From the NCBI GenBank assembly GCA_037127255.1, contig JBANSL010000013.1:66347688-66411687 (forward strand): a DNA stretch of 64,000 nt. The letters are read 5' to 3'. A program made the translations under genes and the position numbers. This DNA is from Persicaria tinctoria (lineage: Eukaryota; Streptophyta; Magnoliopsida; Caryophyllales; Polygonaceae). Positions within the stretch are counted from its first letter, which is position 1; each line of letters starts with the position of its first letter. The notes under the pieces are model-generated. The model had not been told where the DNA came from. It searched no databases and saw nothing but the letters and a program-made list of their open reading frames with translations. Below are positions 27,664 to 62,933 of the stretch, one piece after another.

Positions 27664-27821
27664 CACTGATTGGATGGGACAAAATATGTAAAACGCAAAA
27701 GAATGGAGGTCTAGGCCTACATAAATCGAAAGACATTAATAAAGCACTTCAAATGAAACTACTTTAGAAGATCTTTGCGGAACCAAAGAACATTTGGGTA
27801 AAAGGATAAAGAAATCAATTA

Positions 27822-28590
27822 TTGTTGCGAATCGTGAGTGAAACTATATATCTTTCTATTTCTTTCAATCAATCACCATTGCTCTCATTACTTTGCTATT
27901 GTTTTCATCATCTCTATTATTGTTTTCTCTACTTCTCTCTTTTCTCTCACTTTGGGTTCGACTCTTACTCTACCTCTATACTAAATATTGAGTTGAGATT
28001 ATCTTTGGAGGAAATCAATGATCGTTTCATGCTTTGCTAGTAGACTTAATGTTGTGATTTATTCATAAGGAATTCTCCTGGATGTCTCGTGGCAAACCTT
28101 TGAGGTCTTGGGGGACCAAGCCAACGTGTCTCGCGATCTCTCAAGGATGCCCTTGACCCAACTGGGAGCAACACCTTGCAAAATTATCCCTAAATACAGC
28201 GTCTCTGTCACATTTGGGTAGGGGGGAAATGTTGTTCTGTCCTATGCGAATCTATCTGTTACCTTCTTAGGTCGAACTTCCAACTCAACCTCTAGACTCG
28301 CGGAGTTAGTGTCTTGGTTGTAGTTCTCACCAATGTCAGGTAACACACTTTGCTCTCAGGTTAGGGTTCGCGAACCTCACCAGCCTTACCGTCCATGGTT
28401 AGGAATTCAATGCTAAAGTGACAAACAGAGAAAACTACTTGACATTGAAACATGCTTACTCGTCCTATGATCGTGTTGTAGACCGAGGGTAACCGGACCA
28501 CTATGATGCTCACCATGCCGGTTCGATGGTTGGGAGGCGCTCGTAGTGTGAGAGCAAGCTCGATGGTCCCGGCTACTTCTACTTAATCTC
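27822..28590 (-). pseudogene. Ty3/gypsy pol fragment, copy B (uninterrupted)
   Basis: Minus-strand frames show VVRLPSVYNTIIGR, TMDGKAGEVRE and ILERSRDTLAWSPKTSK, which match the protease-end and linker of plant gypsy polyproteins. It contains stops and lacks RT motifs. It is the empty-site partner of 4594-6690. Confidence 0.6.
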
Positions 28591-36120: not shown

Positions 36121-36990
36121 CCTATATAGAACAATATTCACTCGGAATTCACCGTTTTTATTTTAGTAACACACAAACGAACTCCTATAGATGAAGAAAC
36201 CAACGATTTCTGGTACGTATCTTCTGTTAAATTATTCATATCGATCGCTTAATTAAATTCTGTAGAAAAAGTCAACAAATAATTGATTTGAAGGTACTTT
36301 TGTTTATGCAGGCATGGATAATCTCCCAGATGAGATATTAGCTGAAATTCTATACAGATTGCGCATCAAACCTCTCTTCAGATGCAAGTGCGTCTCAAAA
36401 CAATGGAATTCCGTCATCTCCGACCCCAAATTCAGCCACAATTATCGACAATCTTCGTCGTCTCTGAATCACCTATCGACATTCTTGTATCCGCACGTCC
36501 ATGATGACTTTGCCAGCGATTTCATAGATCTCATCGATTCAGATCCTACCATCCATCACACTGATGATGATACTCCACACTCCCTCTACCCCGCTTTTTA
36601 CCGACCTGGCCGCGTATACCGCATAGAGGATTCAAGAAATGGACTCTTACTCGGTTCTTACCATTTTTCAATCAATCGCTATAGAATGTGGCACGAAATT
36701 TTTGTCTTCAACCCGCTCACCAACCAATCTGTAAACCTTCCACCCTTGTTACTTTCCGAGTATCAATGGGCTTGTGGTCTCGCCACACGTCTTTTTGGGG
36801 AGAATCAAGGCTGCGTTACATACAAAGTTGTGTTTATTCAAGTCTTGAGGGCAGGTGATGGTGCTGATTCCATCAACTTTGCTACAGTTGACGTCTTCTC
36901 TTCGGATACTAGGAGATGGACTCGTAAAGAACGAATAATTTGTCCGAGTTCTATGGTTATGAATCTATGTGTTATGCCGCGATTATTTAG

Positions 36991-37322
36991 TTACAAGGGT
37001 ATCTTGCATTTCTTCAATTGGAATACAAGGACTATAGTGACTTATGATCCCTACGACAGCTCTAACAGATTCGACTCCATTCAACTGCCCATTGGAACAA
37101 GCAGTGGCGGAGGGAGAAAAAAATCCAGGGGGGGGGGGCTTGCTTTTGGAATGAAGTTACAAGGGTATCTTGCATTTCTTCAATTGGAATACAAGGACTA
37201 TAGTGACTTATGATCCCTACGACAGCCCTAACAGATTCGACTCCATTCAGCTGCCCATTGGAACCAGCAGTGGCGGAGGGAGAAAAAAAATCCGGGGGGG
37301 GGGGGGGCTTGCTTTTGGAATG
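36991..37322 (+). repeat. 166-bp tandem duplication within the F-box gene
   Basis: TTACAAGGGTATCTTGC begins at 36991 and again at 37157. Each unit includes F-box coding sequence plus the left end of the inserted MITE, so the duplication happened after the MITE arrived. Confidence 0.85.
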
Positions 37323-37522
37323 AAGGAAAGAGCTTTTAAAAAAATGAAAAAAAGAAAGAAAGGGGAATCGAACTGCATACCTTCCCACATCTTACAAGGG
37401 GCTTCAACCATCTATGCCACCAGTTACATGTATTTCATATCCCCTTCTTAAGTATATATACAGAAGTTTAATTTTCCGAGAGGGGGGGGGGGGGGGCTGA
37501 AGCCACCGCATGACCCCCCCTG
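37268..37522. mobile_element. hAT-like MITE in the F-box gene
   Basis: The element starts CAGTGGCGGAGGGAG and ends CATGACCCCCCCTG. The flanks GGAACCAG and GGAACAAT (GGAACAAG in the first tandem copy) are an imperfect 8-bp duplication. Two poly-G runs mark its ends. The interior (37366-37432, minus strand) has tRNA-like boxes GGCATAGATGG and GTTCGATTCC. It is related to 54658-55060. Confidence 0.7.
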
Positions 37523-38492: not shown

Positions 38493-38915
38493 TGATAAGA
38501 GTTGCAAATTGGATTGAGAATTCAGCACACTAAGTGCTTAGAATTGTTTGGTTTTGGTTTGATCAAAATAAAGGGAACATTCACTGTTCCATTGAAGAAC
38601 ACAGCAAAGGATGAAAATGAGGTGTGGCCGCCTCTTTTTTTCTGTGAGGAGCAGATCCCCAAAACCCTACTAATCCGGAAAGGATTACATGGGATGCTTA
38701 TATACCCTGAACAAGGTCACTCACGTGACAAGGGTGTGCAATACAGCACAGCTGGCCAATGCCTCTTACCACTACAGCTGTCTAAGCTGCTAGAAGACAA
38801 AATGCAGGAAAAAATAAAGGTTTAGCAGTAGCTTATTACGTGACCAAAATGTAGCATAGGAAATAGATAGAATGTAGAGAAATGTGATGACTAACAGCAT
38901 CACATACTCTTCATA
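38493..38915 (-). repeat. Copia 3' LTR
   Basis: 423 bp; the minus strand begins TATGAAGAGTATG and ends ACTCTTATCA. The polypurine tract GAGGAGGGGA lies just inside (38916-38925). It matches 51396-52613 once the hAT-like insertion there is removed. Confidence 0.9.
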
Positions 38916-38923
38916 TCCCCTCC

Positions 38924-41900
38924 TCAAGTTGGGAGTGATGGAAGACCAATCAATCCCAACTTGGATGCAAGGAAGAAGTGATGTTTTTCACCCAAGGGCT
39001 TGGTTAGAAGATAAGCTATTTGAACACCAGTTCTGATGTGTTGAGGAAGAACAAATCCTGCTTGCAATCTTTCTCTCACAAAATGACAGTCAATTTTGAG
39101 ATGCTTGGTTCTCTCATGGAAAACAGGGTTCTCAACTATGTGAATAGCAACCTTGTTGTCATAGTATAAAGGAATGGGTAGAGGAATTTGAGCATTTAGG
39201 ATTTGCAACATCCCTTCAATCCATACCAGCTCACTAGTGGTATTGGACATGCTTATGTATTCTGCCTCGACTGAAGACTTTGAAACTGTCTTTTGCTTCT
39301 TTGTTTTCCATGAAATTAGGGAATTACCCAAGAAAACACAGAACCCTGTTAATGATCTAGCACTGAACTGACAACTACCCCAGTCTGCATCATAGTATGC
39401 AGTGATGTCTATGGGTGTGGAAGCTGGATAAAACAAACCCACTGAGACAGTGCCTCTAAGATACTTGACAACATGCAAAGCAACTTGATAGTGAGTATCT
39501 CTTGGATCAGTCATGAACTGACTGAGGTGTTGGACAGCATAGGAGATGTCAGGTCTTGTCAAATTCAAGAACAATAATCTTCCCATTAATCTTCTATATA
39601 TTTCTGGATCACTTAGAGGTGTCCCACTGTCTGTAGACAATTTCAAACCTCTTGGTAAAGGAAATGGAGATGGTTTGCATTCTAGCATAGAGCAATCCTT
39701 CAATATGTCATGGACATATTTCTTTTGATGCAGATAGATCCCTGTGAGGTTCCTTTCTATTTCCAATCCTAGGAAATATCTAGCCTCTCCTAGATCTTTG
39801 ATTGTAAATGCTTGATGTAAGGCTTTCTTAGTGTCTGCAATGACAGCTAAATCATCTCCTGTGAGCAATAGATCATCTACATAGGCAAGAGCCACCACAA
39901 TGCCATTTGGAACCTTTTTTACAAACATGGAGTAATCCTCCATGGATTGCTTATAACCCAAGTTTGTAAAAAAAACCACAAAGTTCGAGATTCCACTGTC
40001 TGGAGGCCTGTTTCAGACCATAGATTGAATTCTTTAGCCTGCAAACCTGACCCAACTTAGCCTGATCAAAGCCTTCTGGTGGTTGCATATAAACTTCTTC
40101 TTCTAGATGTCCATGCAAGAATGCATTGTTCACATCTAATTGATGGATTGGCCATCCATTTGCTGCTGCCACTGCAATGACAATTCTGACTGAGGTGAAT
40201 TTAGCTACTGGAGAAAACGTGTGTTTGTAGTCTTTCCCTTTGACTTGATTGTATCCCTTTGCCACCAATCTAGCCTTGAATCTCTCAACAGATCCATCCG
40301 GCTTGTACTTCACCTTGTACACCCATTTACTGCCTATGGCCTTTTTTCCAGGAGGCAATTCTGTCAGTTCCCAAGTGCCATTTCTCTCAAGGGCTTGAAT
40401 CTCAGTTTGCATAGCTTGGATCCAGTTAGGATCTCTACAAGCTTGTTTATAGTGGGAAGGCTCATAAACATTTGTCATACAAGCAAAGGTGTGGGAATAG
40501 TGCGGGTCTTGATCATGAATCTCTGATAAACAAATGGCAAGGAAGGAATTGGACATGGAAGGATTTTGGTTGATGGTTTGATCCACATAGTCTTGATACC
40601 TCCTAGGTCTCACAATCTCACGTGTGGACCTTCTGAGAGGTGGAAAATGGTCATGATCATCAAGGAAGTTTGGTTGATTTTGAGGAGGAAGTGGCTCTTG
40701 GTTTTGGGTGCTTTCAGAGGTTGGTAAATTGGATGAGGTACTTTCTGAAGTGGAGTTTGGAACATGATCATTGAAAATTGGGAGATTGATTTGTGGAGAT
40801 GGTGTATTTTGTGGTGTTTGAAAAGGTGCAGGATGATACATTGTATCATCTGCAGGGTTGACAAGGGGTAGTGGTTTGTGAGAAGGAGATTGTTCAGGTG
40901 GTAGGGAAGGTGGTTCAATCTCCTTGAAAGGGAAAATATTCTCTTGAAAGATGACATCCCTACTGGTGTAGGTGCATCTGGTCTCTAGATCCCACACTTT
41001 GTAAGCCTTTTGGCCATGTGGATAGCCAAGGAAAACACACTTTCTGGCTTTAGCTTTCAACTTATCCTGCATGTCATGAGGAACATTGGCATAGCATAAG
41101 CAACCAAAAACTTTTATCTCTTCATAACTCACTCATTTCTGAAACAATCTCTCATATGGAGTTTCCCAATCTATCACACTGGAAGGCAACTTGTTGATTA
41201 TATGAGTGGCTGTCAGGATGCAATCCCCCCAAAATTTGAGAGGTAAACCAGCATGTAGCCTTAAGGCTCTGGCCATTTCAACAAGATGTCTATGTTTTCT
41301 TTCCACTCTCCCATTCTGTTGTGGAGTGTATGGAACACTTTTCTGATGAACTATCCCTTCTGAAGCACAAAACTCAGTGCATTGCTTAGAGACAAACTCA
41401 GTCCCATTGTCTGTTCTTAAACACTTCACACTACTGTTGAACTGTGTTCTAACATAAGCAACAAATTGACAGATAAGCTTGAATACCTGAGTTTTGTCTT
41501 TTTATCAAAAAGGTCCAGGTTGTTCTAGTGTTATCATCAAGAACAGTAAGGAAATAGTGGAACCCATTGTAGGTAGCCACCTTATAGGGACCCCATAGGT
41601 CCATGTGAACTAGATCAAAAGGCCTATCTGCTATGCTGTTACTTCTTTCAAAAGGGAGCCTGTGATGCTTGGATAGAGAACAAATTTCACAATTAAAATC
41701 TGAAAGATTCAACTGCTTAGTAATCTGCATATGTTTCATCTTGGACAAAGAGCTATGACCCAGTATAGCATGCATAACATTCAAGTCTGTGCTAGCTTTA
41801 TTACAACTGCTAAGGCAGTAATCAAAACATTTCTTAATGTTTTTGTCAACTAGTTTCAACTGCTCCCATTCTTGAACTTGATCATCAGACAACACTCTAT

Positions 41901-42414
41901 ATAGCCCATGCTTCCTGATCCCTTTGAGCACAATTCTTTCAGTTCTAGGGTCCTAAATCAAACAAGACAATCGAGTGAAGTGAGCTATCAGATCATTCTC
42001 ATCAAGAAGCTTTCCCACAGACAACAACTTATGTTGGAAATCAGGAACTAGCAAAATATGATTGAGAACTAAGTTCTCTGTCAACTGTAAGCTTCCCATT
42101 TCTGTAACAACTTTGATAGATCCATCAGAGAGGCCTATATGCACTAGCCTTGCAAGTCTAGATTTCTCAAAAAATTTGTCACACATTGGCATCATATGAT
42201 CACTGGCACCAGTGTCTATGATCCAGTCTTTCACATAATTACTTGCTACAACTATGTTAGCTGAATATGGTAAAATCTTACCTGCAAAATTTGCAAAGGA
42301 ACTCTCAGATTTTCCTTTCATCTTCCTCATGATCTCTTGATACACAGCATTCACCATGCTTGTGTCTAGATTCCCTGCATCATAGCCATCAAGATCATCC
42401 ATAGGACTGTTTTG
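38924..42414 (-). pseudogene. Copia pol: protease, integrase, RT, RNase H
   Basis: Read 42414 to 38924: protease WIIDTGASDHMM (about 42220), the GAG-pre-integrase region with HAILGHSSLSKMKH, integrase DLVHMDLWGPY and later TDNGTEF and YTPQQNGRVERKHRH, then RT RNGTWELTELPPGKKAIGSK, QLDVNNAFLHG and YVDDLLLTGDD, and RNase H SSVEAEYISMS with HLKIDCHFVRE. Breaks: a frameshift near 41440, an in-frame TGA at 41133-41135, a frameshift near 39965 between the two RT halves, and a stop near 41945. The host enzyme order and motifs are otherwise complete. Confidence 0.92.
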
Positions 42415-42419
42415 AGTAC
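42415..42419. other. TSD AGTAC of the nested Athila-type element (left)
   Basis: AGTAC at 42415-42419 repeats at 50261-50265. Joining the copia sequence at this point restores continuity between its zinc knuckle and protease regions. Confidence 0.9.
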
Positions 42420-44442
42420 TGTTGTGAGCTAAATCTGCCATATTTTACAATAACTTTAATATCGATTTCTGCATACTTTGCATACATTTGGCTTAGATAG
42501 TACAGAACCTATGTAGTTTATGTTTATTTGCCAAATTATGGAATCTACACCAGTTTCTGTTTAATTCACAGAAATCGAGGCATTTTACAACAATTCTACA
42601 GAAGGTCAGAAAAGCTCGGAAAACCACTACAGAAGTCCAAGGTCAAAGAAGCAGCGGAACCAGTCGAATCGAGCCGAGAACCCAGGCTACTCGATCTCGA
42701 GTAGGTCTTACTCGACCTAGACGAGCATGTCCGAGCAGCCTTGGTCGACAGAGCCTGATCGAGAAAGCCAGACCAACCCGACTTCCGGAGTCTACTCGAT
42801 CTCGACAAGCCCTAGTCGAGATCGACGAAGCCCAGCGCCACACCCGGAGTCGACGAAGAGAGAAGCTGCCCGAGAAGCCGAGGACGACCAGGCAGCACTC
42901 GCTGCCAGCGATTCCACTTGCTGCAGCGGACCGCTCGCTGCCGCGGAAAATCTCGCTGCCAGCGGGATGCATCAAGCCGCGGAAGGGGCAACTCACGTAA
43001 GCGGAAGGGAAGACCCAACTCGATGTCGACGAGCACTTGTCGAGGTCGACGAGACCCGTGAGCCAAGTCTGAGCCACATCGAGCACCAACTAACCAAGAC
43101 GACGAACCCGAGGAGCCAGTCGATGACTTTCCTAGTCGAGATCGACCACGCCTTGTCGAGATCGACGAAGATTTCCCGAAGCCGCGTGACGCGTTGATTG
43201 CAGTTCTACTCGATGTAGAGTCCTTGGAGCCGAGGAGAAGCAAAGTCTATCCGATTTATCCACATCTATCATGGAGAAGAGAGTTTTATCCACTTTAAGA
43301 CATTTAGATATATTTAGATTTAATTTCTTTATCGCTTTTATTTATCGTTAAGCATTTTAGATATAGTTTTAGATATAGATATAGATATTCTATCCTTGAG
43401 TAGCAAGGGTTAGAAGGCTATAAATAAAGCCCTAGGGGCTGGTTTTTGAGATATTCAATTTCAGGGAGACAGTGATACATAGAGATTTAGGAGTTCAGAG
43501 GTTTTAAGGTTTTGGCAGTTTACGAGAGTTGATTGCTAGGATTGTAAAGTCTTGGAATTTAGTTTAATGCAAGTTGTTTTCTTTCAATCGATGATGTTTG
43601 AGTTTGCAATGAAGAGCGAGTAGTCCACCCACTTCTAGGGTTGGGGCGAGCCCGACGATAGCCATGCATAATTGAGGTAAAGATCCAACCTTTATCATGT
43701 TTTGAGTATTTTCCTACTTGTTGATGTGTTTATTGCCCATCTAATGGAGATCCATGCTAACAACTTGGATTATAAACATAAAATTGGTAGAGACAATTAG
43801 GGTTTCTTGAGAGAGTTGTCTAATTGTTGGAAAAGGCGAAAGCTTAGTCCTTTAATGCAATTCACATGATTATCTGTTTGATTTCTACCTTATGCATGTT
43901 TGGTTATCGTTGTTGCAAACCCCAATCTTAGAAGTTCTTTTACATACAGTTTATTTCAAGAGTCCCAAAGCATTTGCCTTTACTTTATTTCTTTATTTCG
44001 TTTTAATTTTTGCCCTTGTCGATCTCGAATTGACTTGGTCGAGATCGAGTTGCCCTTGCCGGGTTTGCCTGTCTGCTGTGATTTCCGATTTTCTGTTGTC
44101 GACTGCTGTGGTCGATCTCGAGTAGCTGTTTGTCGAGATCGACGAGCCCTTTGCTTTGCTTTTAGTTTCTGCTTTGCTTTGTCTTTCCTGTTTTGCTTTG
44201 TTCTTTGCTTCTGCTTTTATTTTTGTTTCTTTCGTTGTTTCTGTGTTTCTGTCTTTTCTGCTGCTCTGTCTGTGAGAATTTACAGCTACCTGAGAACTGC
44301 TGACGTGCTTCCTCGTGGATTCGATCCTGACAACCTTCTACTACAACGGGAGGAAGTCTTGTAATTATTTGCTGAGACAGGGAAGTCAGTCTGATCTTGA
44401 TTTTATATTTATTTCATACTTGACCATCCTCCTGCAACAACA
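42420..44442 (+). repeat. Athila-type 5' LTR
   Basis: Starts TGTTGTGAGC and ends GCAACAACA. The 42680-43200 part is GC-rich, with many CTCGATCTCGA motifs. A TATAAATAAAG box-like signal at 43420 precedes a likely transcription start. 44000-44260 is TTTGCTTT-rich. Confidence 0.9.
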
Positions 44443-44445
44443 AAT

Positions 44446-44463
44446 TGGCGCCGTTGCCGGGGA
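44446..44463 (+). promoter_or_regulatory. Primer-binding site (tRNA-Asp)
   Basis: TGGCGCCGTTGCCGGGGA, 3 bases after the LTR end, is complementary to the 3' end of plant tRNA-Asp, as in Athila and related gypsy elements. Confidence 0.9.
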
Positions 44464-44525
44464 AGCTATCATTCGCGCCTTAGGTAGTTAAGTCTCACGT
44501 TTCTTTTGAGTTAATTCGCAGGTGT

Positions 44526-45599
44526 ATGCGTTGTTCTGGTCTACCACCTGAGTTTGACGCCTTAGACGAACCGGAGCGCCTCCTACACATCCGAGCTAGA
44601 CTACAAAGAGCCATGGCGGCCGCTGAAACACAAGAACAACCTTGCATTGAATGTGGATCACAGAGGCACACCACTACTGAGTGCCCACACACCGAGGAAG
44701 TCAGGATGGCAGAAACACATGAGCAGGCAGCCTACGCTGGGGGTCCAAATCGCTACATGGGAGACCAACGATCTTACCAACCACAGTGGAACCAAGGTCC
44801 TCCTAGGAATCCCCCACCCTACAGAGCTCCAGGACATCCAGAAAGGGATCAAAAGAAGGATGATCTGCAGCTGATCCTAGAGGAGATGCGTCGGAATCAG
44901 GGCACCATCAACAACCAATTCCAGAATATCACTACAAAGTTTGGGGAATTGGACATCTGGAAAAGGGGAATAGAGACGCAGATGGGTCAGATCGCTGCAC
45001 AGGTCCCACGACCGTCCGGACAACTCCCTGGGCAAACTGAACCAAATCCTAAAGGGAAAACCGGACACGTCGCAGCTATCAAACTAAGGAGTGGACATCA
45101 ATTACACGAGCCAGAGGTCGGAAAACAGCAAAGCCAGGCAGAGCAGCAACTCGACGTAGAGCACGGACAACTCGATCTCGAGGAAGGTGTACTCGACATC
45201 GACGAGACTCTACTCGACAAAGACCAGAAGCTGAGCTCAGACTCCGCTGCGCAGACCAGCAACTCCAGGTCGACCACTGTACTCGATGTCGACGAGCCCG
45301 TTGTCGAGATCGACGAGCAGCGTCAAGCCGACGTCGACGACTCTGCAGCACCTCCGCTGGATGATCAGGCTCCGAAACTGAAAAAGCCATTGCCTTTCCC
45401 TTCAAAGGCACAGAAAGATCCCACTGCAGGTAGGTTTACCAGATTTGTTAATATGCTGCAAGAACTGAATGTTTCTATTCCTTTTTACAGAAGCCCTGCA
45501 AGAGATGCCTGGATATGTAAAATTTATCAAGGAAATCCTAAGCAAGAAGCGATCCATCTCAGAGATCGCAGGCGAATGCAAAGTACTCCACTTCCCTGA
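44526..45599 (+). CDS. Athila-type gag C-terminal polyprotein
   Basis: 357 codons in one frame. A CCHC zinc knuckle (CIECGSQRHTTTEC) lies near residues 38-51. A proline/glutamine-rich stretch, a helical segment (LILEEMRRNQGT) and the AIKLRSGHQL motif, typical of Athila gag-pro junctions, follow. Residues 200-270 are an acidic insert made of repeated VLDVDEP/VEIDE-like units encoded by the CTCGA motif. The N-terminal gag core of full-length Athila proteins is missing. The frame shifts at about 45480-45500 into the protease part. Confidence 0.8.
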   Translation: MRCSGLPPEFDALDEPERLLHIRARLQRAMAAAETQEQPCIECGSQRHTTTECPHTEEVRMAETHEQAAYAGGPNRYMGDQRSYQPQWNQGPPRNPPPYRAPGHPERDQKKDDLQLILEEMRRNQGTINNQFQNITTKFGELDIWKRGIETQMGQIAAQVPRPSGQLPGQTEPNPKGKTGHVAAIKLRSGHQLHEPEVGKQQSQAEQQLDVEHGQLDLEEGVLDIDETLLDKDQKLSSDSAAQTSNSRSTTVLDVDEPVVEIDEQRQADVDDSAAPPLDDQAPKLKKPLPFPSKAQKDPTAGRFTRFVNMLQELNVSIPFYRSPARDAWICKIYQGNPKQEAIHLRDRRRMQSTPLP

Positions 45600-46521
45600 A
45601 AAGAGACCTGACCCTAGTAAGTTTTCTGTTACTGTGGGTTTTGGTCAATATAAATATGATTCTCTATGCGATTTAGGGGCAAGTGTGAGCATCATGCCTT
45701 TATCAATCTAGCGGAAAGTAAAGATAGGATGCATAGAACCTGTGGATGCTAAGCTATACATGGCAAACAATACAGTAGTCATCCCTACAGGTATAGTTGA
45801 GAACGTCCCTATCCAGGTTGGTAAATTCTTTGTTCCAGCTGATTTCCTTATCATTGACTGTGCTGAAGATCCTACTAGCCCTATTATTCTTGGTAGACCA
45901 TTCTTAGCTACTGCAGATGCCCGAATTAGCGTCAAGAATAGATCGCTCACCTTCACCATAGGCGATGAGGTTTTGGATTTCTCTTTTGGCCCTGCAAAAG
46001 AGGAAATTGCATGGCTGGAGGTGAAAAGCATCAGCGACCACGGGACCAAGCAAACGGCAGGGGAGGGTGCTGACGCTGTACTCGAGATCGACAAGCCCAA
46101 CTCGATCTCGACAAGGGACCTACTCGACTTCGACAAGCCTTCGTCGATATCGACAAACACTACAGAGCCAGAAACTTGCCAGGAGCCTAAGTATGGGGTC
46201 CCTGTACTCGAAGTCGACAAGCCTTCATCGATGTCGACTAGCCCCAAGCCTAAAGATTCCTGTTTTGGGTCCGAAGAGGCAGGTTCAGGTATGAATCCTA
46301 CTCCCCCTCAGTCCATAAAGAAAATTTTAAATGATTTAAGGGGAGATAAGACGCCGTGGCAAGAGAATCTGCGAAAACTGAGAGCTGGAAGGAAAAGGGA
46401 GAAGGCAAAAGGAGATGATGCAAGCAACAACCTATCAGCTGAGCTTGCATACTACCATCAGGACCTAGATGATCCAGGAGAGGGGCCAAGCATGAGCGGG
46501 CCCCACAATAAGGGTCCTTGA
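45469..46521 (+). pseudogene. Athila-type aspartic protease region
   Basis: The frame from 45469 gives ALQEMPGYVKFIKEILSKK and then the protease core YDSLCDLGASVSIMPLSI. A TAG at 45709-45711 breaks it and the same frame continues from 45742 (PVDAKLYMANN, ILGRPFLATADA), the second half of the retropepsin fold. The active-site triad reads DLG where DTG or DSG is usual, so activity is doubtful. After it, 46078-46240 encodes more LEIDKP / DFDKPSSIST repeats. Confidence 0.75.
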
Positions 46522-48237
46522 GCGCAAAAGGAGAAGTCGGCCTAGCGACTCTAAAATCTAGAGCATGTATATAAAACTTTATGATTTTGGGACTTTTGAA
46601 CTTTTTGTTTTGTTTTTGGTTTTTGGTTTTAGGGTTTTAAGTCTCTTAGAATGTTTTATGTGGATAGTCTTGTTTTGTGTGCAATCTAACACTTTTAGGT
46701 CGGCAAGCATATAAAGGATCGCGAAAAGTGGAATAATGAAGTCCCTGAAAGCAGTCAGAATCGACGAAGGCCAAGTCGACGACGACAATGAGGAGAAGCC
46801 CAGAAGTTACTCGACCTCGAGTAGACGTACTCGACATGGACCAGCCAGACGCTCCTCGACTTCAGATTCCACCAGACGCAGACGAAGCTCCTCGAGATCG
46901 ACTACCCTGTACTCGATGTCGACAAGCCTATCTCTACTCGACATGCACTGATCTGCCTTCCTCGATGTTTTATCCTGTGAGTTCCTTCCTTTACTCTTGT
47001 TTCTATTTGATTTTATACAGTGAGGACACTGTAAATTTTAAGTATGGGGTGGGGGAAGGGCTTACTTTGTGCACATTTGCTATATTTGACATATATGTGC
47101 ATTATTTCTTTGAATTGCTGCTGTGCTTATTTTGGGAATGCATTATTGATTTATGTGCTTATATGCATAATTTCCAAAAGTTTGAAAAATGACCCCAATT
47201 GAAAATTTTTGAATAATGTCATGGAAGTTAATTGAACTCGACGATGCAAAATTGGATTCATTAGAGATATAGCATGAAATTGCCTAGTAAAGGGAAGTCA
47301 TAATGAAGTGCATTATTTCTTGAAAACCATAGAAGGAGGTAAAATTTGAAGTTGCTTTTGACATGTGCATGATAAGATGATGGAGGACTTTATATTTCCA
47401 TATAATGCTCATTGTTTGAAATCCTAGCCATACCTATGCTTATGCATCACAAAAACCATAATATGCCTTATTTCAATTATCGCTCCACATAATCTAAAAT
47501 ATTACCATTCTTTACCCTATCCGGGGATTATGTTGAGAATGATATTACATTATGGAGATTATCATATGGTGTTTGTGTTGTGATTATTATCATTATTGGA
47601 GTTTGGAAGGAAATTATTTGAAATATATGGAAAATTTAATGAGTGAAAGAAAATCCAATCACCTCAGGAGATAAAGGTAGATTGACCCTGCTCTCTGAGA
47701 TAATAGTTTGGAGAGATGGGACACATTGTGAGGAGTCCAAAGCACTAAGTATCCGGGGCCATTCATGACACCCATGTTTGCGACTCGCGAGAAGGCAGTG
47801 CTGAGGTCAGAGAGGTAAAAGCATTATTGTTGATAAAAGCATTATGAAAGGTGATGAATTTTATGAAAAAGAATGTGGAAATTCAAGTTTGAAAATACTC
47901 CCTTTCCCCGGATCATTAGCACCACATTGCCAAAAATTGCCCACCTTTTAGCCTTTTACCAAATCTACTCCCTATTTGAGCTTAAATTGAAGTCTTCTTG
48001 ATTATCAATGCTTTGTCACTTATGAATGTTTTTGCATAACCCTCCTTTTATGAGTAGATGTTGCTTTAATATAATTGCACATGCATGGATTTGTGACACT
48101 AGTACCTTTTCGAGGATGGTAATTGACTGCTGGGTTATATAAGAATGAATCTGATATGTTGAGAGTTTTTGATTTCTTCCCCTGAATGACAAATAAAAGT
48201 ATTACTTGAGGACAAGCAAGCTTAAGTATGGGGTGTT
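46522..48237 (+). other. Athila-type 3' non-coding region with two purine tracts
   Basis: There is no RT or integrase. 46740-46960 has another cluster of CTCGA motifs. AAGTATGGGGTGGGGGAAGG lies at 47040-47059, and a second AAGTATGGGGTGTT at 48224-48237 directly abuts the 3' LTR and is the likely polypurine tract. The 1.2 kb between them is non-coding. Confidence 0.7.
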
Positions 48238-50260
48238 TGTTGTGAGCTAAATCTGCCATATTTTACAATAACTTTAATATCGATTTCTGCATACTTTGCA
48301 TACATTTGGCTTAGATAGTACATAACCTATGTAGTTTATGTTTATTTGCCAAATTATGGAATCTACACCAGTTTCTGTTTAATTCACAAAAATCGAGGCA
48401 TTTTACAGTAATTCTACAGAAGGTCAGAAAAGCTCGGAAAACCACTACAGAAGTCCAAGGTCAAAGAAGCAGCGGAACCAGTCGAATCGAGCCGAGAACC
48501 CAGGCTACTCGATCTCGAGTAGCTCTTACTCGACCTAGACGAGCATGTCCGAGCAGCCTTGGTCGATAGAGCCTGATCGAGAAAGCCAGACCAACCCGAC
48601 TTCCGGAGTCTACTCGATCTCGACAAGCCCTAGTCGAGATCGACGAAGCCCAGCGCCACACCCGGAGTCGACGAAGAGAGAAGCTGCCCGAGAAGCCGAG
48701 GACGACCAGGCAGCACTCGCTGCCAGCGATTCCACTCGCTGCAGCGGACCGCTCGCTGCCGCGGAAAATCTCGCTGCCAGCGGGATGCACCAAGCCGCGG
48801 AAGGGGCAACTCGCGGAAGCGGAAGGGAAGACCCAACTCGATGTCGACGAGCACTTGTCGAGGTCGACGAGACCCGTGAGCCAAGTCCGAGCCACATCGA
48901 GCACCAGCTAACCAAGACGACGAACCCGAGGAGCTAGTCGATGACTTTCCTAGTCGAGATCGACCACGCCTTGTCGAGATCGACGAAGATTTCCCGAAGC
49001 CGCGTGACGCGTTGATTGCAGTTCTACTCGATGTAGAGTCCTTGGAGCCGAGGAGAAGCAAAGTCTATCCGATTTATCCACATCTATCATGGAGAAGAGA
49101 GTTTTATCCACTTTAAGACATTTAGATATATTTAGATTTAATTTCTTTATCGCTTTTATTTATCGTTAAGCATTTTAGATATAGTTTTAGATATAGATAT
49201 AGATATTCTATCCTTGAGTATCAAGGGTTAGAAGGCTATAAATAAAGCCCTAGGGGCTGGTTTTTGAGATATTCAATTTCAGGGAGACAGTGATACATAG
49301 AGATTTAGGAGTTTAGAGGTTTTAAGGTTTTGGCAGTTTACGAGAGTTGATTGCCAGGATTGTAAAGTCTTGGAATTTAGTTTAATGCAAGTTGTTTTCT
49401 TTCAATCGATGATGTCTGAGTTTGCAATGAAGAGCGAGTAGTCCACCCACTTCTAGGGTTGAGGCGAGCCCGACGATAGCCATGCATAATTGAGGTAAAG
49501 ATCCAACCTTTATCATGTTTTGAGTATTTTCCTACTTGTTGATGTGTTTATTGCCCATCTAATGGAGATCCATGCTAACAACTTGGATTATAAACATAAA
49601 ATTGGTAGAGACAATTAGGGTTTCTTGAGAGAGTTGTCTAATTGTTGGAAAAGGCGAAAGCTTAGTCCTTTAATGCAATTCACATGATTATCTGTTTGAT
49701 TTCTACCTTATGCATGTTTGGTTATCGTTGTTGCAAACCCCAATCTTGGAAGTTCTTTTACATACAGTTTATTTCAAGAGTCCCAAAGCATTTGCCTTTA
49801 CTTTATTTCTTTATTTCGTTTTAATTTTTGCCCTTGTCGATCTCGAGTTGACTTGGTCGAGATCGAGTTGCCCTTGCCGGGTTTGCCTGTCTGTTGTGAT
49901 TTCCGATTTTCTGTTGTCGACTGCTGTGGTCGATCTCGAGTAGCTGTTTGTCGAGATCGACGAGCCCTTTGCTTTGCTTTTAGTTTCTGCTTTGCTTTGT
50001 CTTTCCTGTTTTGCTTTGTTCTTTGCTTCTGCTTTTATTTCTGTTTCTTTCGTTGTTTCTGTGTTTCTGTCTTTTCTGCTGCTCTGTCTGTGAGAATTTA
50101 TAGCTACCTGAGAACTGCTGACGTGCTTCCTCGTGGATTCGATCCTGACAACCTTCTACTACAACGGGAGGAAGTCTTGTAATTATTTGCTGAGACAGGG
50201 AAGTCAGTCTGATCTTGATTTTATATTTATTTCATACTTGACCATCCTCTTGCAACAACA
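48238..50260 (+). repeat. Athila-type 3' LTR
   Basis: 2,023 bp, the same length as the 5' LTR, and followed by TSD AGTAC (50261-50265). Confidence 0.9.
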
Positions 50261-50265
50261 AGTAC

Positions 50266-51337
50266 TCACATTCATGGAGTCTGCAGCATTGACTGAACCC
50301 TTGTGTGTACTGACAGTCTTCTCTCTTTCCTTAGTCCCTTTGAACCAATCTGGATACCCATGTATCTTGAAGCACTCCTCAACTGTATTCCCATTCATGT
50401 TGCAAGGAGTGCATTTCTTCTGAAGCTTCAACTGCTTTCTGATCTCTCTCTAGTCTTTTCCTACACTTTACTTCCCAGCTGATCCATTTGAGGACTGATT
50501 AGATTTTTGACTCCCACTGTAAGACCTGTTTCCCTGCTGTCCCGATCTTCCTCTCATAGCAACAAAAGCACTGGTCTCTGAGGATCCAGATTGACTCCCA
50601 TTGGAGGGATCATTGCCTGTCTCCACCTGTTGCAGAATATAATAAGCCTTCCCTACAGAGAGAAGTGGATCTGTAGCCAGAATCTGATTCTTTGCTGCAT
50701 CAAAATTATCATTTAGACTCATAAGCAATTGTATAAGACTGTTTCTCTGCTCCATCTCCTCAAACTTCTTAGTCAAGTTACACTTGCAAGTGACTATGAC
50801 ACCACAACTGCACACAGGGACTCTCTCCAATACTTGGAGTTCATCCCAATACTTCTTCAGTTTGTTATACAGGTCTGAAACAGACATGTTTCCTTGTGAC
50901 ATATTAGCAAGTTTCCTCTTGATTTGATAAATCAAGGGAGCATTAGTATGACTGTACCTCTCATTGAGCTCATCCCAAAGCTGCTTGGTGGAGCTATTAA
51001 ACACCAGCCCTTCTGCTATGTTCTTTGTCATGGAATTTATGATCCAACAACGGACCATAAAGTCAGATCTAATCCATTTCTGCAAGTCTGCAGACTCTGC
51101 AGCAGGTCTCACACAGGTTCCTTCAATGAACCCAAGTTTGCATTTGACTCCTAGAGCCATGATCACACCTCTACTCCATGTCATGAAGTTGGTGCCATCA
51201 AATGGAACCCCAACAAGTTGGGCTCCTGGATGATCAGAATTTGATAAAAATAGAGGATCATTTGGATGACCTTGACCTGCCATGTCTCCTTCAATGTTGT
51301 TGATCTCAGTGTTGTGTCTTGGTGGAGTGAACATCAA
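50266..51337 (-). pseudogene. Copia gag with zinc knuckle
   Basis: Read 51337 to 50266. It starts with a leader, then LVGVPFDGTNFMTWSRGVIM and LGFIEGTCVRP, the conserved gag core (UBN2-type) of plant copia elements, and NERYSHTNAPLIYQIKRKL. The frame stops at 50466-50468. A shifted frame holds the zinc knuckle CTPCNMNGNTVEECFKIHG, in which Asn replaces the usual His. The nested element then interrupts it at the TSD. Confidence 0.85.
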
Positions 51338-51383
51338 TTTCTGCGCTCAACTAGAAGCTATGATTGATCGAGCTAACCATCAA

Positions 51384-51395
51384 GCTCTGATACCA
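51384..51395 (-). promoter_or_regulatory. Copia primer-binding site (initiator tRNA-Met)
   Basis: On the minus strand TGGTATCAGAGC directly follows the 5' LTR; it is complementary to the 3' end of plant initiator tRNA-Met. Confidence 0.92.
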
Positions 51396-52613
51396 TGATA
51401 AGAGTTGCAAATTGGATTGAGAATTCAGCACACTAAGTGCTTAGAATTGTTTGGTTTTGGTTTGATCAAAATAAAGGGAACATTCACTGTTCCATTGAAG
51501 AACACATCAAAGGATGAAAATGAGGTGTGGCTAGGGCTGGGCAGAAATTGGATCGGACCGAAATCGGACCGGGACCAGACCGGAAATTATGGTCTTTGGA
51601 TCGGACCGGAAGTACCCTCCCGAAAACGATGGCTTCTTTCTTTCTTCTGTTCAGACTTCGTCTTCAATCACCCATTCCGGTTCCGGGAGGCGGGAGTCTC
51701 GTTCTCGTCTCTAACTCAGTCCCCTCTCTCTCTCTCTCCAGTTACTACCTGCTAGTTTGCCCTCCTCCTTTGTGCTCGCCAATCGGTCGCCCCTCACCAG
51801 TCGCCACCCGCGGCGTTCCCGTGCTCGCCGCCAGTCACACCGCCCCCCACAGTCGCACCCGCCAGGACTTTCAGGCTGCTGTATACATGTATAGTTTGTA
51901 CACTGTACAAAAATTGGGTTGCCGTAATCGAGATGCCAATCAGTTGGAATGTTGAATCAAAATCGAAAGATATTATTAATTATTGGATTATTAATTATAT
52001 ATATATAAGATCGAAAAGGCAATTGTAAGCATACTTGGAGAGTGGAGATGCTAATGATGGATGGATTGATCTACTAGAAAGCTTGAGGCGGTTTGTTGTT
52101 AAGGCTTTCTTAATCTCAGAAGGCAACGTTTATGCTAGTAACCCAAAAAAGAAGAAGAAGAGAACCATGGCTGCAGACTCCGGTCCCTAACGGTCCGCGG
52201 ACCGGAAAATCCGGGACCATATATCTCGGTCCCGGTCCGGTCCGCGGTCCGAGTTTCTGAAAATTCTGGTCCATCGGATCGGACCGGGACCGGAATGTTC
52301 GGTCCGGCCCGATCCGGTCCAGACCGGATGCCCAGCCCTAGGTGTGGCCGCCTCTTTCTTTCTATGAGGAGCAGATCCCCAAAACCCTACTAATCTGGAA
52401 AGGATTACATGGGATGCTTATATACCCTGAACAAGGTCACACACGTGACAAGGGTGTGCAATACAGCACAGCTGGCCAAGGCCTCTTACCACTACAGCTG
52501 TCTAAGCTGCTAGAAGACAAAATGCAGAAAAAAATAAAGGTTCAAAATGTAGCATAGGAAATAGATAGAATGTAGAGAAATGTGATGACTAACAGCATCA
52601 CATACTCTTCATA
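51396..52613 (-). repeat. Copia 5' LTR with hAT-like insertion
   Basis: It is the same LTR as 38493-38915, enlarged by the element at 51532-52340 and its 8-bp TSD, and lacking about 24 bp near 52535. Confidence 0.9.
51532..52340. mobile_element. Non-autonomous hAT-like element with CGGACCGG-rich ends
   Basis: Perfect 12-bp termini TAGGGCTGGGCA / TGCCCAGCCCTA and a perfect 8-bp TSD GGTGTGGC (51524-51531 and 52341-52348). The other copia LTR has the single empty site at about 38620. Both ends hold iterated GGACCG/CGGTCC motifs. The interior is CT-rich and AT-rich, with no transposase. Confidence 0.92.
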
Positions 52614-52618
52614 TCTAT

Positions 52619-57168: not shown

Positions 57169-57196
57169 AATAAAAATGTGGGTCCTATAATTTTTT

Positions 57197-57430
57197 ACTC
57201 CCTCCGTTCACAAATATAAGATTGTTGACTTTTTGCACGTATTTTAACGAGTGAAAAACTACATAAAATATTAATTTTTTTTCAAAAAAAAATTTCGTAA
57301 TATAATATTTATTAAGAATACATACTATATTGTGAAAAAAATTAATTAAAAAATTAATATTTTATATATTTTTTACTTCTTAAAATACGTGCAAAAGTAA
57401 AGTGATCTTATATTTATGAACGGAGGGAGT
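57197..57430. mobile_element. Stowaway-like MITE
   Basis: CTCCCTCCGTTCACAAATAT and its inverse ATATTTATGAACGGAGGGAG form the ends, next to TA on both sides. The interior is AT-rich and non-coding. Confidence 0.85.
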
Positions 57431-57439
57431 ATTAGGTAG

Positions 57440-60400
57440 ATGTGATAATAGAGAGACTGAGAGGAGGAGAAGAGAATGAACTGATGTATTATTGGGGGTC
57501 TTCATGACCCTTTATATAAGAGTTTACATAGGGAACTAGGGTTTACTAGTGTTTATCCATCCCTAATATAATAATATTATAACACTCCCCCTTGGATAAA
57601 CATCCTTAAATACGACCTCATTACAAATATCGCCTAGAAAACCCAATGGGACAAAACTAGGATCCAGAGAACAAATACATATGACATTTGATACGCTTTG
57701 GTGATCTGCCTCGTTAAAAACCTTGTCAGGAAAACCCAGTGGGACAAAACCTGATCGAAGGAAAAAAGAGTGCAGTCCGTGTATACTCCCCCTGAAGTCA
57801 ACATCCTTCTCGAAGTCTTCTCATTCATCTTGATGGCGTTGTCTTCATGAGCTTATTGTCGAATCTCAACATTGTCTTTGACCTGGAATTTCTTCATGAT
57901 TGACTTGATGTGCTTGACTTCCATGTATTGGTGTTGGGCTGCTTTGAATGCACAAGCATAAGGTACTTAAGGACCTTGTATGCTTTTCACTATTGATTAG
58001 GGGGATCTGTTGTATTAAATGGTGGATAAGTTACCTCGCTAAAAATCTTAACTTGGAAAAACCCAATGGGAGAAAAACCAAGATCAAGGAAAAGAGTACA
58101 ACATTGTATGGTACTTCGGGACCTAATGCAATGTCACAATTTTCTCAATTATAAGTACTTCAGGTACTCTTATCAGGATCTTTAACCAATTGCATGTGTC
58201 GGGACTTTGATATTAATGCTTCATGCATTTTTAATCGATCTTTTTAATTTATATGTGTATCCAAGTAACATGTCCGTCATTTACATTTAGATTCAAAATT
58301 ATATTCACTTCTGGTGAATACATTCTCCATATAACCTTTGATAGGTCGGCTTTTGTGCAATCAAGTTGGCTTTATATTTTATTTTGTATGAACACCCACT
58401 TAAAAACCAATTGATGTTGCACTTTGCAGTGTTGGAACTACTGGTCCAATCTCATCATGTTTAATGAATCCATCTTTGCATGAATTGCTCCATTCTAGCT
58501 CTTTTACTATGATTTCGATGTCGACATCAATTTTTTTGATGATCATCATATTCTCATAGGCTCTTTCCACTTCTGAGGAATCGTATACCAAGAGCCTAGT
58601 GATCTTCAACACTTCCGGTGTACTTGAGAACCACTTGATATTCATTGAGTTGGAGTTACTTCTGGAACTTCCAAATGAGCTAGTATATGTGACTTTGTCA
58701 CTTTCTTGGCCTTTAGTAAATGCTTTCAATTGCAGATTTGCTAAACCTTATAATCATTTTATTTATTGAACTTCTGGTTCCCTTGTATTTATCCGCGGAT
58801 ATGAAATGATAGAGAAGTTGCTTCCGTGCAATCTCTTTCTTAATATTTAGTCTCATTTTCTCTCCCCCTAAATACCGAGCATTTGATCACCATTATAAAG
58901 CTCTAGGTATTTGATATCAATAGGGACTCAAACCCCATGTATCATCCAACTTCTTTGTGGTCTCATTGTAGTTCATTTGGAGGAGGTATATCTCAGAACA
59001 TATGCTGCTTATTCAAAACCTTTGAATGACATGCTCTCTTCTGGAGATAATTAGGGAGATGTTATTGTGTCAAATTCGAAATGCAAACTTGCATGGGCCC
59101 ATTTGACCAATGACTCTTTTGGGTCGTCGTGAGCTACCGTATGCTCAACAATGTTTTTGATAACATTCTCTACCTTATGTTTTCATATGACCAAAGTGTT
59201 GAGGCATTTGTAATTTTGGAATTACACTGGTCTATATGATAGTGTTCCGTAGTTGTCTCATTGAATCCATTCAAGAGATATTAGAGACTTTGCATTTACT
59301 TTGAATTTAGATGGTCTTGTTGTTGATTTGCCAAGATGACAGACCATATATGTTCGGTCACCCTTATAGAGGATTTTCGGGTCCTAGGATCTTCTGGTCC
59401 CTTTTAGTGGGTGTGTATGTGAATGTCAATGATCCCGCCCATCATTGTTTCACATGAATGACCGAATGCCACAAAGAAAAACATTTTATCATTAACTAAC
59501 TTCTGGTTAGTGATAAGTTTCAATGGGATAAATGAGTGTAAAATAAACCATATATATACATTCTCACTCTGTAAGACTTGCTTCTGGCTAGTCATATGAG
59601 ATATTGGTGTTCAATACCATGTCAATTCATACATATGTGTTATTGTTACTTTCGTTGGTGTCATACTTCAGGTATGAGTCATTTATAATGTTCTTCAAGA
59701 CATTTAGAATTAACCGTATAACAGACCTAGCTATAAGCCACAACAATAACTTTGGTCAAGCGCTTAACCATAACCTCTTTCACACCCTCTACCGGAGGGG
59801 CATGCTTCAGGCAATGCTTAGAGGATAGTCAGGAAGTGGCCTTCTTAACCGGATCGTGTTATGTGGTTACTTCTATTGGTTGTATCAACCAGACAAAAAT
59901 AGTTTTGAATATGATAAAACCCACCTTCCATGTACTTCTTTAGAAGTACAAATGATAAAATTAGGATCATATACTCTTCTAGAGTTTGGGAAATCATTTA
60001 CTCTTCTAGAGTTTATAAAATATTCTTTACTCTTTAGGAGTTAATAAAAATTCAGCAGTAGAGTCTTCAAGCTCTTAGGCTCGTAGATTGTGGTAAACCT
60101 TTCTCCCAAATGTTCATTTGCCAAACAAAACTCCGCATTAGACACTCATGATAAGTAGTTTCTTCGGGAAACACTTTGAGCTTTGAATTACAATAAGTAA
60201 AATCACAATAATTTTATTCAATATAAAGCAAAGAATAAAAAAACAAATAAACAAATAAAATAAAATTGTATTTGTCCACTTCAGGTGGAGCCATGAGAAA
60301 AAACTTGTCAATTTATCATTTTCTTCAAGAAATGATTTTATTCATAAAATGATTCATTTGTCAATTTCGATTGACAATTAGTCTCTATTATGTATATTTC

Positions 60401-62640
60401 GATCATATACTTCAAAAGATGATAAGTTGCAATTCAAAAATATAGTAAGTTGTCATATAAACATTGACCATATTCTTCAATGTTTGATTATTACTCACTT
60501 CAGGGAGAAGACAACTTGTATACATTCATTTTAATTTCTACACTTCTGGATATTTGTGCAACTTTAAAATAAAAATCCATACACTTAGGGCATGCTTTCA
60601 TCATGAAGAGAATATACAATATTTCTCATATCACTCATTTACTTCAGGAAATGAAAATTGTCACTTCAGAGACAAATTTGTGTTGATGAGAGAGAGACAT
60701 TTTATGAATTTTCTTTTCATATATCTCTTCAGGAGATTATTATCGTTACTGCAGGAACGATTTAGTTATGAGCATAATGTGTTCATCCTCTTCAGGGGAT
60801 GAATTTATTTATTTCGAAGGATAATGATAAATAAATACACAATTGATATAATTAATAAAATTATAACATCATAAATAAATAAAATCAAATTGGCATATTG
60901 TCAACTTCTAGTGACAAACAAATGAACATATGCAAATACATGTTCGTACACTTTTGGAGACTTTCGGAGATCGAAACCATCTACTATAGGAGATAAATTT
61001 CATCATGATATATAAGCTAAAATATTTTATCTTCTTCTGGAGATAAATAAGAGTCTCATCTTCTTCAAGAGATGTGATACATAAATTGTGTTTACTTTAT
61101 CTACTTTAGGAGATAAACTGCCACTTTTGGGATGATATGCAAATTTAACAATTTATATCTACTTCGAGAGATAATGTTTGTCTACTTCTGAAGACAAAAA
61201 AAAAATATAAATTGAAATGAATAATAAAATTGAAAATAAAAAAAATCATCACTACGGGGATGATCTTCAATCGTTCACATCTACTTTAGGAGATGTTCCA
61301 TTCATCTACTTCGGGAGATGGGGATTAAACAAATATAATTTAAATAAAATAAAATAAATAACATACATATAAAATAAATAAACATAAATAATAAATACAG
61401 TTTCATCACTATAGGGATTAAATTTATCGGCTTGACCATCTCTGCGGGGATGAGATTTATCGTTTCATCGCTTCGGGGATGAGATCAACTTATCATTCAT
61501 CTACTTCGGGAGATGATTTCGTTCATACACTTCGGGAGATGCGCTCGTTCATCTACTTCGGGAGATGCGCTCGTTTATCTACTTCGGGAGATGATTTTGT
61601 TCATCTACTTCTGGAGATGATATATAAATTTAACAATTTTATCTACTTCAGGAGATAATTCATCTACTTCAGAAGATGAAAAATAATTAAAAAATAACAT
61701 AAAATAAGATAAATTGTGTTTACTTTATCTACTTCAGGAGATAAACTGCCACTTTTGGGATGATATGCAAATTTAACAATTTATATCTACTTCGGGAGAT
61801 AATGTCTGTCTACTTCTGAAGACAAAAAAATATATATAAATTGAAATGAATAATAAAACTGAAAATAAAAAAAAATCATCATTACGGGGATGATCTTCAA
61901 TCGTTCACATCTACTTCAGGAGATGTTCCATTCATCTACTTCGGGAGATGAGGATTAAACAAATATAATTTAAATAAAATAAAATAAAATAAATAACATA
62001 CATATAAAATAAATAAACATAAATAATAAATACAGTTTCATCACTAAAGGGATGAAATTTATCGGCTTGATCATCTCTGTGGGGATGAGATTTATCGTTT
62101 CATCGCTTCACGCATGAGATCAACTTATCATTCATCTACTTTGGGAGATGCGCTCATTCATTTACTTCGGGAGATGATTTCGTTCATACACTTCGGGAGA
62201 TGCGCTCGTTCATCTACTTCGGGAGATGATTTTGTTCATCTACTTCTGGAGATGATATATAAATTTAACAATTTTATCTACTTTAGGAGATAATTTATTT
62301 ACTTCAGGAGATGAAAAATAATTAAAAAATAACATAAAATAAGATAAAATAAATAAATAAATATATAATTCATCACTACAGGGATGATATTCGATCGTTT
62401 ATCACTTCACGATCGATGGATCCAATCGCTTCAGGGATTGAGATTAAATTAATTTATCCGCTTCAGGGGATACGATCGATTGATCGTAGCGATTGAGATT
62501 AAATTACTTTATCCGCTTCAGGGGATATTACAACTTCGATTTATTCAATCACTTTAGGGATTTAAATTTATTCAAGTAATTCAACCACTTCAGGGTTGAT
62601 ATAATATTATAATAGTAGATTAAATTTTGATTGGTTAAAA
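57440..62640 (+). repeat. Array of covarying stem-loops (non-coding)
   Basis: Across about 5 kb there are at least 40 short inverted repeats, increasingly dense after 60.5 kb. Most share a loop near ACTTC(G/A/T)GG, and arms of 5-7 bp differ from unit to unit but stay complementary. Examples: TATTCAC/GTGAATA (58302-58320), TCATAC/GTATGA (59661-59677), ATCGTT/AACGAT (60742-60761), CATCT/AGATG (61498-61515), CAATC/GATTG (62423-62440), TATCC/GGATA (62455-62472), TCAACC/GGTTGA (62581-62599). A second hairpin type occurs at 57633-58082. No reading frame is conserved. The segment near 57480-57800 resembles non-coding parts of plant retrotransposon transcripts, so the array may belong to a decayed retroelement. 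Confidence 0.75.
61080..62345 (+). repeat. About 630-bp tandem duplication within the stem-loop array
   Basis: ATAAATTGTGTTTACTTTAT begins at about 61081 and again at 61710. The whole block, including its order of hairpins, is repeated with small differences. Confidence 0.8.
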
Positions 62641-62933
62641 ATACGTAGTGAGGTATAAATAAAGTTAAAAAAATAGTAATGGGGTAAACTTATGGGTGTG
62701 GGTTAAAAGTTAGAAATTCTTTAGGGATGTGGTAGAGTTAGTGGAAAATGAGATGTCAAAATATTAGGAGGAGAGAGAGTGACGAGGTTACCCCGTGAGT
62801 GCTGATCCTCTTACACATCTATTTGAGGGGTGGGGTTGGAATGAGGCTCTTCCATACCAATGCTCCGCATCCTCCTCTCTCATCTGCACTTTATCAAAGT
62901 ATCATCTCTAACCTCTCTCTTGTTTTTCCACTC

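Follow-up and report, generated by a model that had tools for sequence, protein, structure and literature searches.

Toward one end of a 64,000-nucleotide stretch of the Persicaria tinctoria genome (contig JBANSL010000013.1, positions 66,347,688 to 66,411,687 of the forward strand; hereafter the window) lies an array of about sixty small hairpins with a common loop and differing but still complementary arms. The array extends from ~57.96 to 62.60 kb, which corrects the 57900..62620 of a preliminary description of this DNA, and it sits within the remnant of a long terminal repeat (LTR) retrotransposon (57441-62614), the sense strand of which is the minus strand. Here, we describe the array and its host element, and weigh how loops can be kept while arms change.

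The common loop is marked on the plus strand by the core CTTCNGG. Of the exact copies of this core in the window, 48 are on the plus strand, with 41 of them within 57400-62650, and 12 are on the minus strand, with a single one in that interval. A relaxed core (at most one mismatch) was used for scoring six flanking Watson-Crick pairs, allowing loops of 7 or 8 bases. At least four of the six pairs are present in 64/81 relaxed plus-strand cores between 57600 and 62650, the remaining 17/81 having fewer, compared with 35/375 outside the array (17/170 on the plus strand and 18/205 on the minus strand) and 0/8 on the minus strand of the array itself. The loop-centred hairpin array noticed earlier is thereby real. 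When right flanks were re-dealt among the 35 unique exact units, none of 5000 deals reached the observed 159/210 pairs (shuffled 99.0 +- 5.9), and the observed pairing was likewise never reached for the 19 proximal (LTR-side) and 16 distal units separately. A search that ignored the loop, for inverted repeats with arms of 5 or more and loops of 4-9, was compared with 200 shuffles. TTC-containing loops made up 17 of 36 proximal repeats and 24 of 51 distal ones, where the shuffles averaged 2.7 of 22.8 and 1.75 of 15.9, respectively. Shuffled sequence, proposed at the outset as a check, therefore gives far fewer TTC-looped inverted repeats. Loops containing GAA, the opposite orientation, numbered 2 and 0, respectively. 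The array loop is strand-specific and has a single orientation.

Within the 41 exact cores, the variable base is A in 16, G in 13, T in 11, and C in one, and the base preceding the core is T in 16 of the 64 well-paired units. The core of the originally proposed form (A/G)CTTC(G/A/T)GG therefore stands, but its restrictions on these two bases do not. All ten arm pairs listed at that time are present in the sequence, although three of them (TATTCAC/GTGAATA, TCATAC/GTATGA, and TCAACC/GGTTGA) include core bases and ATCGTT/AACGAT surrounds a CTGCAGG core. Across 30 proximal units, information content is 0.04-0.40 bits for arm columns and 1.0-2.3 bits for the six fixed positions of the core, the latter raised by the fact that these units were chosen by core. 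In a bulge-tolerant alignment of the arms, 42/81 array cores exceed the 95th percentile and 13/81 the 99th percentile of 383 control cores, but the best control core (12.0) outscores every array unit. In sliding-window folding, certain other stretches of the window reach energies at least as low as those of the array.

Covariation is strong in the distal units and clear in the proximal ones. The distal set, chosen by core alone without regard to pairing, comprises 38 distinct rows and 7 pairs (4/81 array cores were removed as duplicates). Standard pairs amount to 80.1% (shuffled 62.4 +- 2.0), the covariation score is 0.583 (shuffled 0.269 +- 0.030, and at most 0.214 in every slide of the partner column), and 56 cells are changed on both sides, against 21.8. 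For the 39 proximal rows, scores are 0.375 in the 7-base-loop register (shuffled 0.220) and 0.420 in the 8-base-loop register (shuffled 0.209); sliding the partner by one column still gives 0.369 and 0.357, because the two registers differ by one column. The proposal that the loop is kept and the arms are changed with pairing kept is upheld by these counts against both controls, shuffling and sliding. With a covariance model built on the distal set, 5 proximal units are recovered at E <=0.1, and with a sequence-only model 2; neither model finds any unit outside the array, and both miss most units closer to the LTR.

Part of the distal array has been duplicated in tandem (Table 1), and tandem 26-bp units are also present. 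It is conceivable, but very improbable, that a single hairpin was duplicated in tandem to give the array, that the copies then drifted neutrally, and that their pairing is only inherited. Recent changes do appear neutral: the two 640-bp copies differ at 11/195 arm, 10/112 loop, and 11/326 spacer positions, and since arms and loops differ at least as much as spacers, there is no sign of constraint since the duplication, with the proviso that the spacers are A+T-rich and possibly slower to change for that reason. In a small sample of well-paired units, chosen for pairing and compared in twos where their flanks are similar, 7/150 arm positions have changed on both sides and 12 on a single side. 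However, the proximal arms share almost no sequence yet pair, and inherited pairing cannot keep diverged arms complementary.

The span of the host element follows from the 5-mer GTAGA at both of its ends and from an LTR-start remnant beside the far copy, which is one of two 13/14 matches to the LTR start on the plus strand of the window besides the LTR itself. Read on the minus strand, the LTR-side end consists of an inverted-repeat arm, AGGGGGAG, TGTTATAATATT..., the matching arm, a TATA-like stretch, and the TATTATCACA end. Three copies of AGGGGGAG lie within a 1.3-kb span of the element and one elsewhere in the window. We judge the sense strand from the orientation of the LTR and the polypurine tract (PPT), and by this orientation the RNA of the element would read CCNGAAG, with the TTCG strand being antisense. 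Near the LTR, three larger hairpins (U1-U3, 57633-58089) have a constant loop, CCCANTGGG, and changed arms, and by eye and by folding they form a second loop-constant, arm-variable set in the element. Their centres, CCCA(A/G)TGGG, are the sole three CCCA(A/G)TGGGA sites in the window; on the plus strand U2 folds well relative to shuffles (z -3.0), U1 less so (-1.7), and U3 no better (-0.13). Just outside the element, a few bases from the GTAGA duplication, a palindrome resembling a miniature inverted-repeat transposable element occupies 57196-57431 (arms 79% alike inverted, CTCCCTCCGTTC... ends, TA on both sides).

Table 1. Features of the retrotransposon remnant and its hairpin array (window coordinates)
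Feature	Position	Strand	Description
Target-site duplication GTAGA, 3'-LTR side	57436..57440	+	identical 5-mer at both element ends
3' LTR, 144 bp	57441..57584	-	TGTTATAATA...TATTATCACA, TATA-like TATATAAAG; TG...CA ends; inverted termini alike at 9/10 bases
PPT-flanking inverted repeat, right arm	57551..57559	-	GTTTATCCA / TGGATAAAC; 25 bases inside LTR
Terminal polypurine tract AGGGGGAG	57585..57592	-	LTR TG directly next
PPT-flanking inverted repeat, left arm	57593..57601	-	
Large hairpin U1	57633..57661	+	CCTAG / CTAGG around AAAACCCAATGGGACAAAA
Large hairpin U2	57721..57761	+	CCTTGTCAGG / CCTGATCGAAGG around AAAACCCAGTGGGACAAAA; minus-strand reading with relatives P0004-P0009
Second AGGGGGAG copy, polypurine-tract-like	57786..57793	-	
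Proximal (LTR-side) array part	57961..60803	+	varied arms, mixed 7- and 8-base loops
Large hairpin U3	58047..58089	+	CTTAACTTGG / CCAAGATCAAGG around AAAAACCCAATGGGAGAAAAA
Third AGGGGGAG copy	58862..58869	-	
Distal array part	60897..62601	+	8-base loops, mainly CATCT/AGATG-type arms
640-bp tandem duplication, first copy	61081..61713	+	within distal array; 93.9% identical to 61709-62348
640-bp tandem duplication, second copy	61709..62348	+	
5' LTR remnant, first 14 bases	62601..62614	-	13/14 match to 3' LTR start
Target-site duplication GTAGA, far side	62615..62619	+	identical 5-mer

No gag-pol was found in this copy, and 6 of its 18 stop-to-stop open reading frames (ORFs) of at least 55 amino acids gave no credible Pfam match. 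With eight of eleven relatives as tblastn queries, the best 25 matches placed only 57.6-58.1 kb at E below 0.1; a candidate remnant of the pol C-terminus at ~57.79-57.86 kb (minus strand) received no support from tblastn and was dropped. A protein-coding origin of the array was likewise rejected, since the six scanned ORFs of the element gave no credible Pfam match and P0003 has no relatives at E 0.01. A tRNA primer site was not found in the element, TGGTATCAGAGC occurring in the window only at 51395 (minus strand), in another element, and a tRNA search of the window found none. Relatives of the 3' region do exist: the minus-strand reading of 57563-57817, which covers U2, U1, the PPT, and the LTR start, has six relatives on short metagenome contigs (P0004-P0009; E 3e-12 to 1.2e-4), and the reading PRGSVI over the PPT/LTR junction is common to the window and 3/6 of them. 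One of the six, P0009, extends upstream, into sequence related to P0010-P0014, which we read as Copia-type RNase H; P0011 matches the Copia pol at 38951-39577 of the window at 2.8e-31. Copia-type pol beside the 3' region is thus seen in relatives only, and in one of the six. None of the relative proteins shows a small-hairpin array.

Our favoured reading, which we hold tentatively, is that the array represents the non-coding interior of a dead Ty1/copia-type element, in which hairpins were recognised by their loops and had their arms renewed by fold-back copying, and which is now decaying. In the active element, each stem-loop would most likely have served as a cis-acting signal, repeated many times in the nucleic acid of the element and recognised via the conserved loop (CTTCNGG on the plus strand, CCNGAAG in sense), with the arms needed only to pair. 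During reverse transcription or replication, fold-back template switching would have rewritten one arm with the other as template, and this would have kept the arms close to strict Watson-Crick pairing until this copy began to decay. We infer a function for the hairpins, a partner that recognises the loop at some step, and the copying itself from two properties of the array: a conserved, one-way loop calls for recognition or loop-specific priming, and near-strict pairing calls for copying or for selection, either at the DNA level or strongly on RNA.

The types of mismatch bear on these options, as a weak test. As a control, we used T5 tRNA stems (23 acceptor, 14 anticodon) found by ARAGORN, a tool that itself seeks pairing. 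Observed over expected ratios are 0.55 for G-U, 0.15 for A-C, and 0.05 for other mismatches in the acceptor stems, and 0.65, 0, and 0 in the anticodon stems. For the inner five pairs of the array, the distal counts (ratios in brackets) are G-U 8 (0.32), A-C 8 (0.29), and other 12 (0.31), from rows that include non-pairing cores, and the proximal counts in two registers, which were chosen by Watson-Crick count, are G-U 2 and 2 (0.15, 0.23), A-C 5 and 2 (0.47, 0.24), and other 26 and 12 (0.54, 0.30). Extended stems contain 20 G-T and 18 A-C mismatches and are uninformative. G-U is nowhere separated from the other array mismatches as it is in tRNA, and there is no clear sparing of it.

Several observations weigh against our reading. 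Besides the way in which these inner registers and rows were chosen, a fairer count, in which a pair is counted only where the other pairs of its unit hold, gives G-U 13 (0.37), A-C 4 (0.15), and other 25 (0.32) in the distal part and G-U 6 (0.25), A-C 6 (0.30), and other 48 (0.49) in the proximal part, next to G-U 10 (0.46), A-C 0, and other 2 (0.03) in tRNA; stricter settings leave 7, 3, and 11 distal and 6, 3, and 34 proximal mismatches in the same order. All seven distal columns together give G-U 19 (0.52), A-C 11 (0.36), and other 42 (0.60), and bracketed mismatches are 6 G-T against 1 A-C, so the distal part leans weakly to plus-strand wobble. Furthermore, later decay adds mismatches that can mask wobble sparing. 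By inspection, no compensated pair occurs among the 11 arm positions at which the tandem copies differ. An inverted loop is described as the strongest mark of template switching in PMC8794818, and none was seen in the array, the 0/8 minus-strand cores included. P0009 itself does not match the window Copia pol, and Pfam finds no credible domain on P0004-P0009. Finally, the array is a single copy, with no relative carrying it found among the viral and genome contigs searched by DNA pattern. A script scan of 143 pattern-matched loci, among the matches listed (at least 120 stretches from one viral-contig search), gave no array; those read of the eight richest in hairpin cores (L095 whole) resemble single chance matches within phage or bacterial DNA. 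Inspection of four further viral-contig loci likewise showed no array, and a search for loci related to P0001 in viral contigs confirmed 0/24 pattern matches.

Hairpins that are bound by proteins show conserved loops and free arms, which is what the array resembles. Selection on RNA alone might thus suffice: in the sense RNA, where the loop reads CCNGAAG, the hairpins could serve, for instance, as numerous dispersed sites for packaging or Gag binding, while their arms drift by compensatory change. We consider this possible but rather unlikely. The covariation of both array parts agrees with it, as does the folding of the sense strand, in which 60/64 units (chosen for pairing) form the expected loop-adjacent pair at a mean of -3.65 kcal/mol. 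However, sense-strand wobble, which appears as A-C on the plus strand, is unspared (0.29, 0.47, and 0.24 in the inner pairs; 0.15 and 0.30 in the fairer count), unlike in tRNA stems, which keep G-U at 0.46-0.65. Selection for RNA structure, as first suggested for these hairpins, is therefore weakened in its simple form because G-U is not clearly spared, although the distal lean on the plus strand speaks in its favour.

That lean could point to a plus-strand RNA, either antisense or an independent non-coding transcript, partly UUCG-looped, as the selected molecule. Plus-strand hairpins fold better, with a mean of -4.50 against -3.65 kcal/mol, and G-T exceeds A-C both among bracketed mismatches (6 to 1) and in the distal part (13 to 4). 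Even so, we regard such an RNA as quite unlikely: the proximal part shows no lean (6 to 6), the LTR orientation would place the element RNA on the opposite strand, and an Rfam search of the window (hammerhead retrozyme and others) gave no match above the gathering score. Moreover, TTCG occurs in only 13/41 exact cores, and on the antisense strand of the element, so that the UUCG tetraloop does not hold as the general loop.

Template switching creates and maintains hairpins, as has been described for RNA genes (PMC8794818). If such switching, during replication or reverse transcription, kept producing short palindromes, copying alone would account for the array and the hairpins would have no function. 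Near-strict Watson-Crick pairing, a published mechanism (PMC8794818), and tandem copies in which arms and loops differ no less than spacers are all consistent with this. Nevertheless, we find it unlikely, because a process blind to sequence would not be expected to preserve a loop: the proximal excess of inverted repeats (~13) is equalled by that of TTC-looped ones (~14), the distal excess is TTC-looped in 22 of 35, and the orientation is always the same. The hairpin-making copying mechanism offered in the preliminary description thus fits strict pairing better than selection does, but taken alone leaves a conserved, never inverted loop unexplained. The reading in which loop recognition is combined with arm copying takes account of both properties.

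A more speculative variant, on which we would place little weight, makes the loop itself the engine of copying. First-strand complementary DNA, which has the plus-strand sequence, would form a mini-hairpin at C-TTCN-G-G, the 3' G of which would prime fold-back synthesis by the reverse transcriptase of the element, so that one arm could be rewritten in each round as an exact complement of its partner. If true, the array would be self-renewing and loop-programmed, and its arms could evolve freely without ever losing pairing. Covariation is usually taken as proof of a functional RNA; here, it is strong, with a fixed loop and no clear sparing of wobble pairs, inside a retrotransposon. The array is therefore a natural test of the shares of copying and selection in covariation, and across sister copies each hairpin would give a separate count.

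The window as a whole has the look of plant nuclear DNA. Beyond the element it includes an At3g26010-type F-box gene (36314-37213), the ORF end of which is overlapped by a tandem pair of ~170 bp (36989-37325, 95.9% identical). An older Copia element with RVT_2, integrase-type, and gag domains lies on the minus strand at 38493-52615; its primer site, TGGTATCAGAGC, is found at 51395, next to a repeat pair (38493-38628 / 51396-51531) of 99.3% identity. Direct repeats of 2024 bp at 42420-44443 and 48238-50261 (98.8% identical) are probably the LTRs of a young element nested within it. Several long direct repeats, about 84-99% identical, connect 1-8000 with 13946-29029.

The dispersed packaging signals of RNA viruses, too, are numerous stem-loops in which the loop motif is common and the stems vary; they differ from the array in lying throughout coding genomes. 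Among transposable elements, hairpin-rich maize Copia LTRs that attract small RNAs (PMC10760457) also form local hairpins, which may be templates for silencing, in the non-coding DNA of a Copia element, whereas their commonest motif is a fixed palindrome, CACCGGACNNNGTCCGGTG, in the LTRs. The template-switch hairpins of PMC8794818 show strict Watson-Crick stems and multi-base compensatory change, as here; differences are the lack of loop inversions in the array and its constant loop over dozens of neighbouring hairpins, not described in the portion of that source available to us.

The 3' junction compares well with that of Ty1/copia elements as given in PMC2829016: an octamer-like PPT, an LTR starting with TG, and an inverted repeat that flanks the PPT and has its right arm inside the LTR (at 25 bases here, 18 on average there). 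The classic linker, however, averages 78 bp and has one PPT, whereas the PPT here follows ~5 kb of non-coding DNA rich in hairpins, and because gag-pol, the primer site, and most of the 5' LTR are lost, the whole of it cannot be shown to be linker. According to the same source, Sirevirus LTRs contain many palindromic repeated motifs with a CGG-CCG core, and Sirevirus linkers contain several AGGGGGAG copies. The element resembles them in its short palindromes clustered in a non-coding Copia region, its several AGGGGGAG copies upstream of the 3' LTR, and its PPT-flanking inverted repeat. We do not file it as a Sirevirus because the AT/TG attachment site after the terminal PPT is absent (TGTTA follows directly) and because its LTR is 144 bp without CGG or CCG, rather than ~1 kb with CGG-CCG palindromes. 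Sireviruses moreover have one palindrome consensus per element, in the LTR or near env (PMC2829016), as opposed to a fixed loop with arms that vary within one copy, outside the LTR. Sequence strings had no match in the literature searched, and the available portions of it describe no single copy in which the loop stays constant while the arms vary. The initial impression that no named system has this layout accordingly holds as far as those searches go, but Sireviruses do carry arrays of palindromes in non-coding regions of Copia elements (PMC2829016). The array adds to what is known of the little-described non-coding interior of Copia elements, as an uncommon form of a kind of repeat that had already been described in them.

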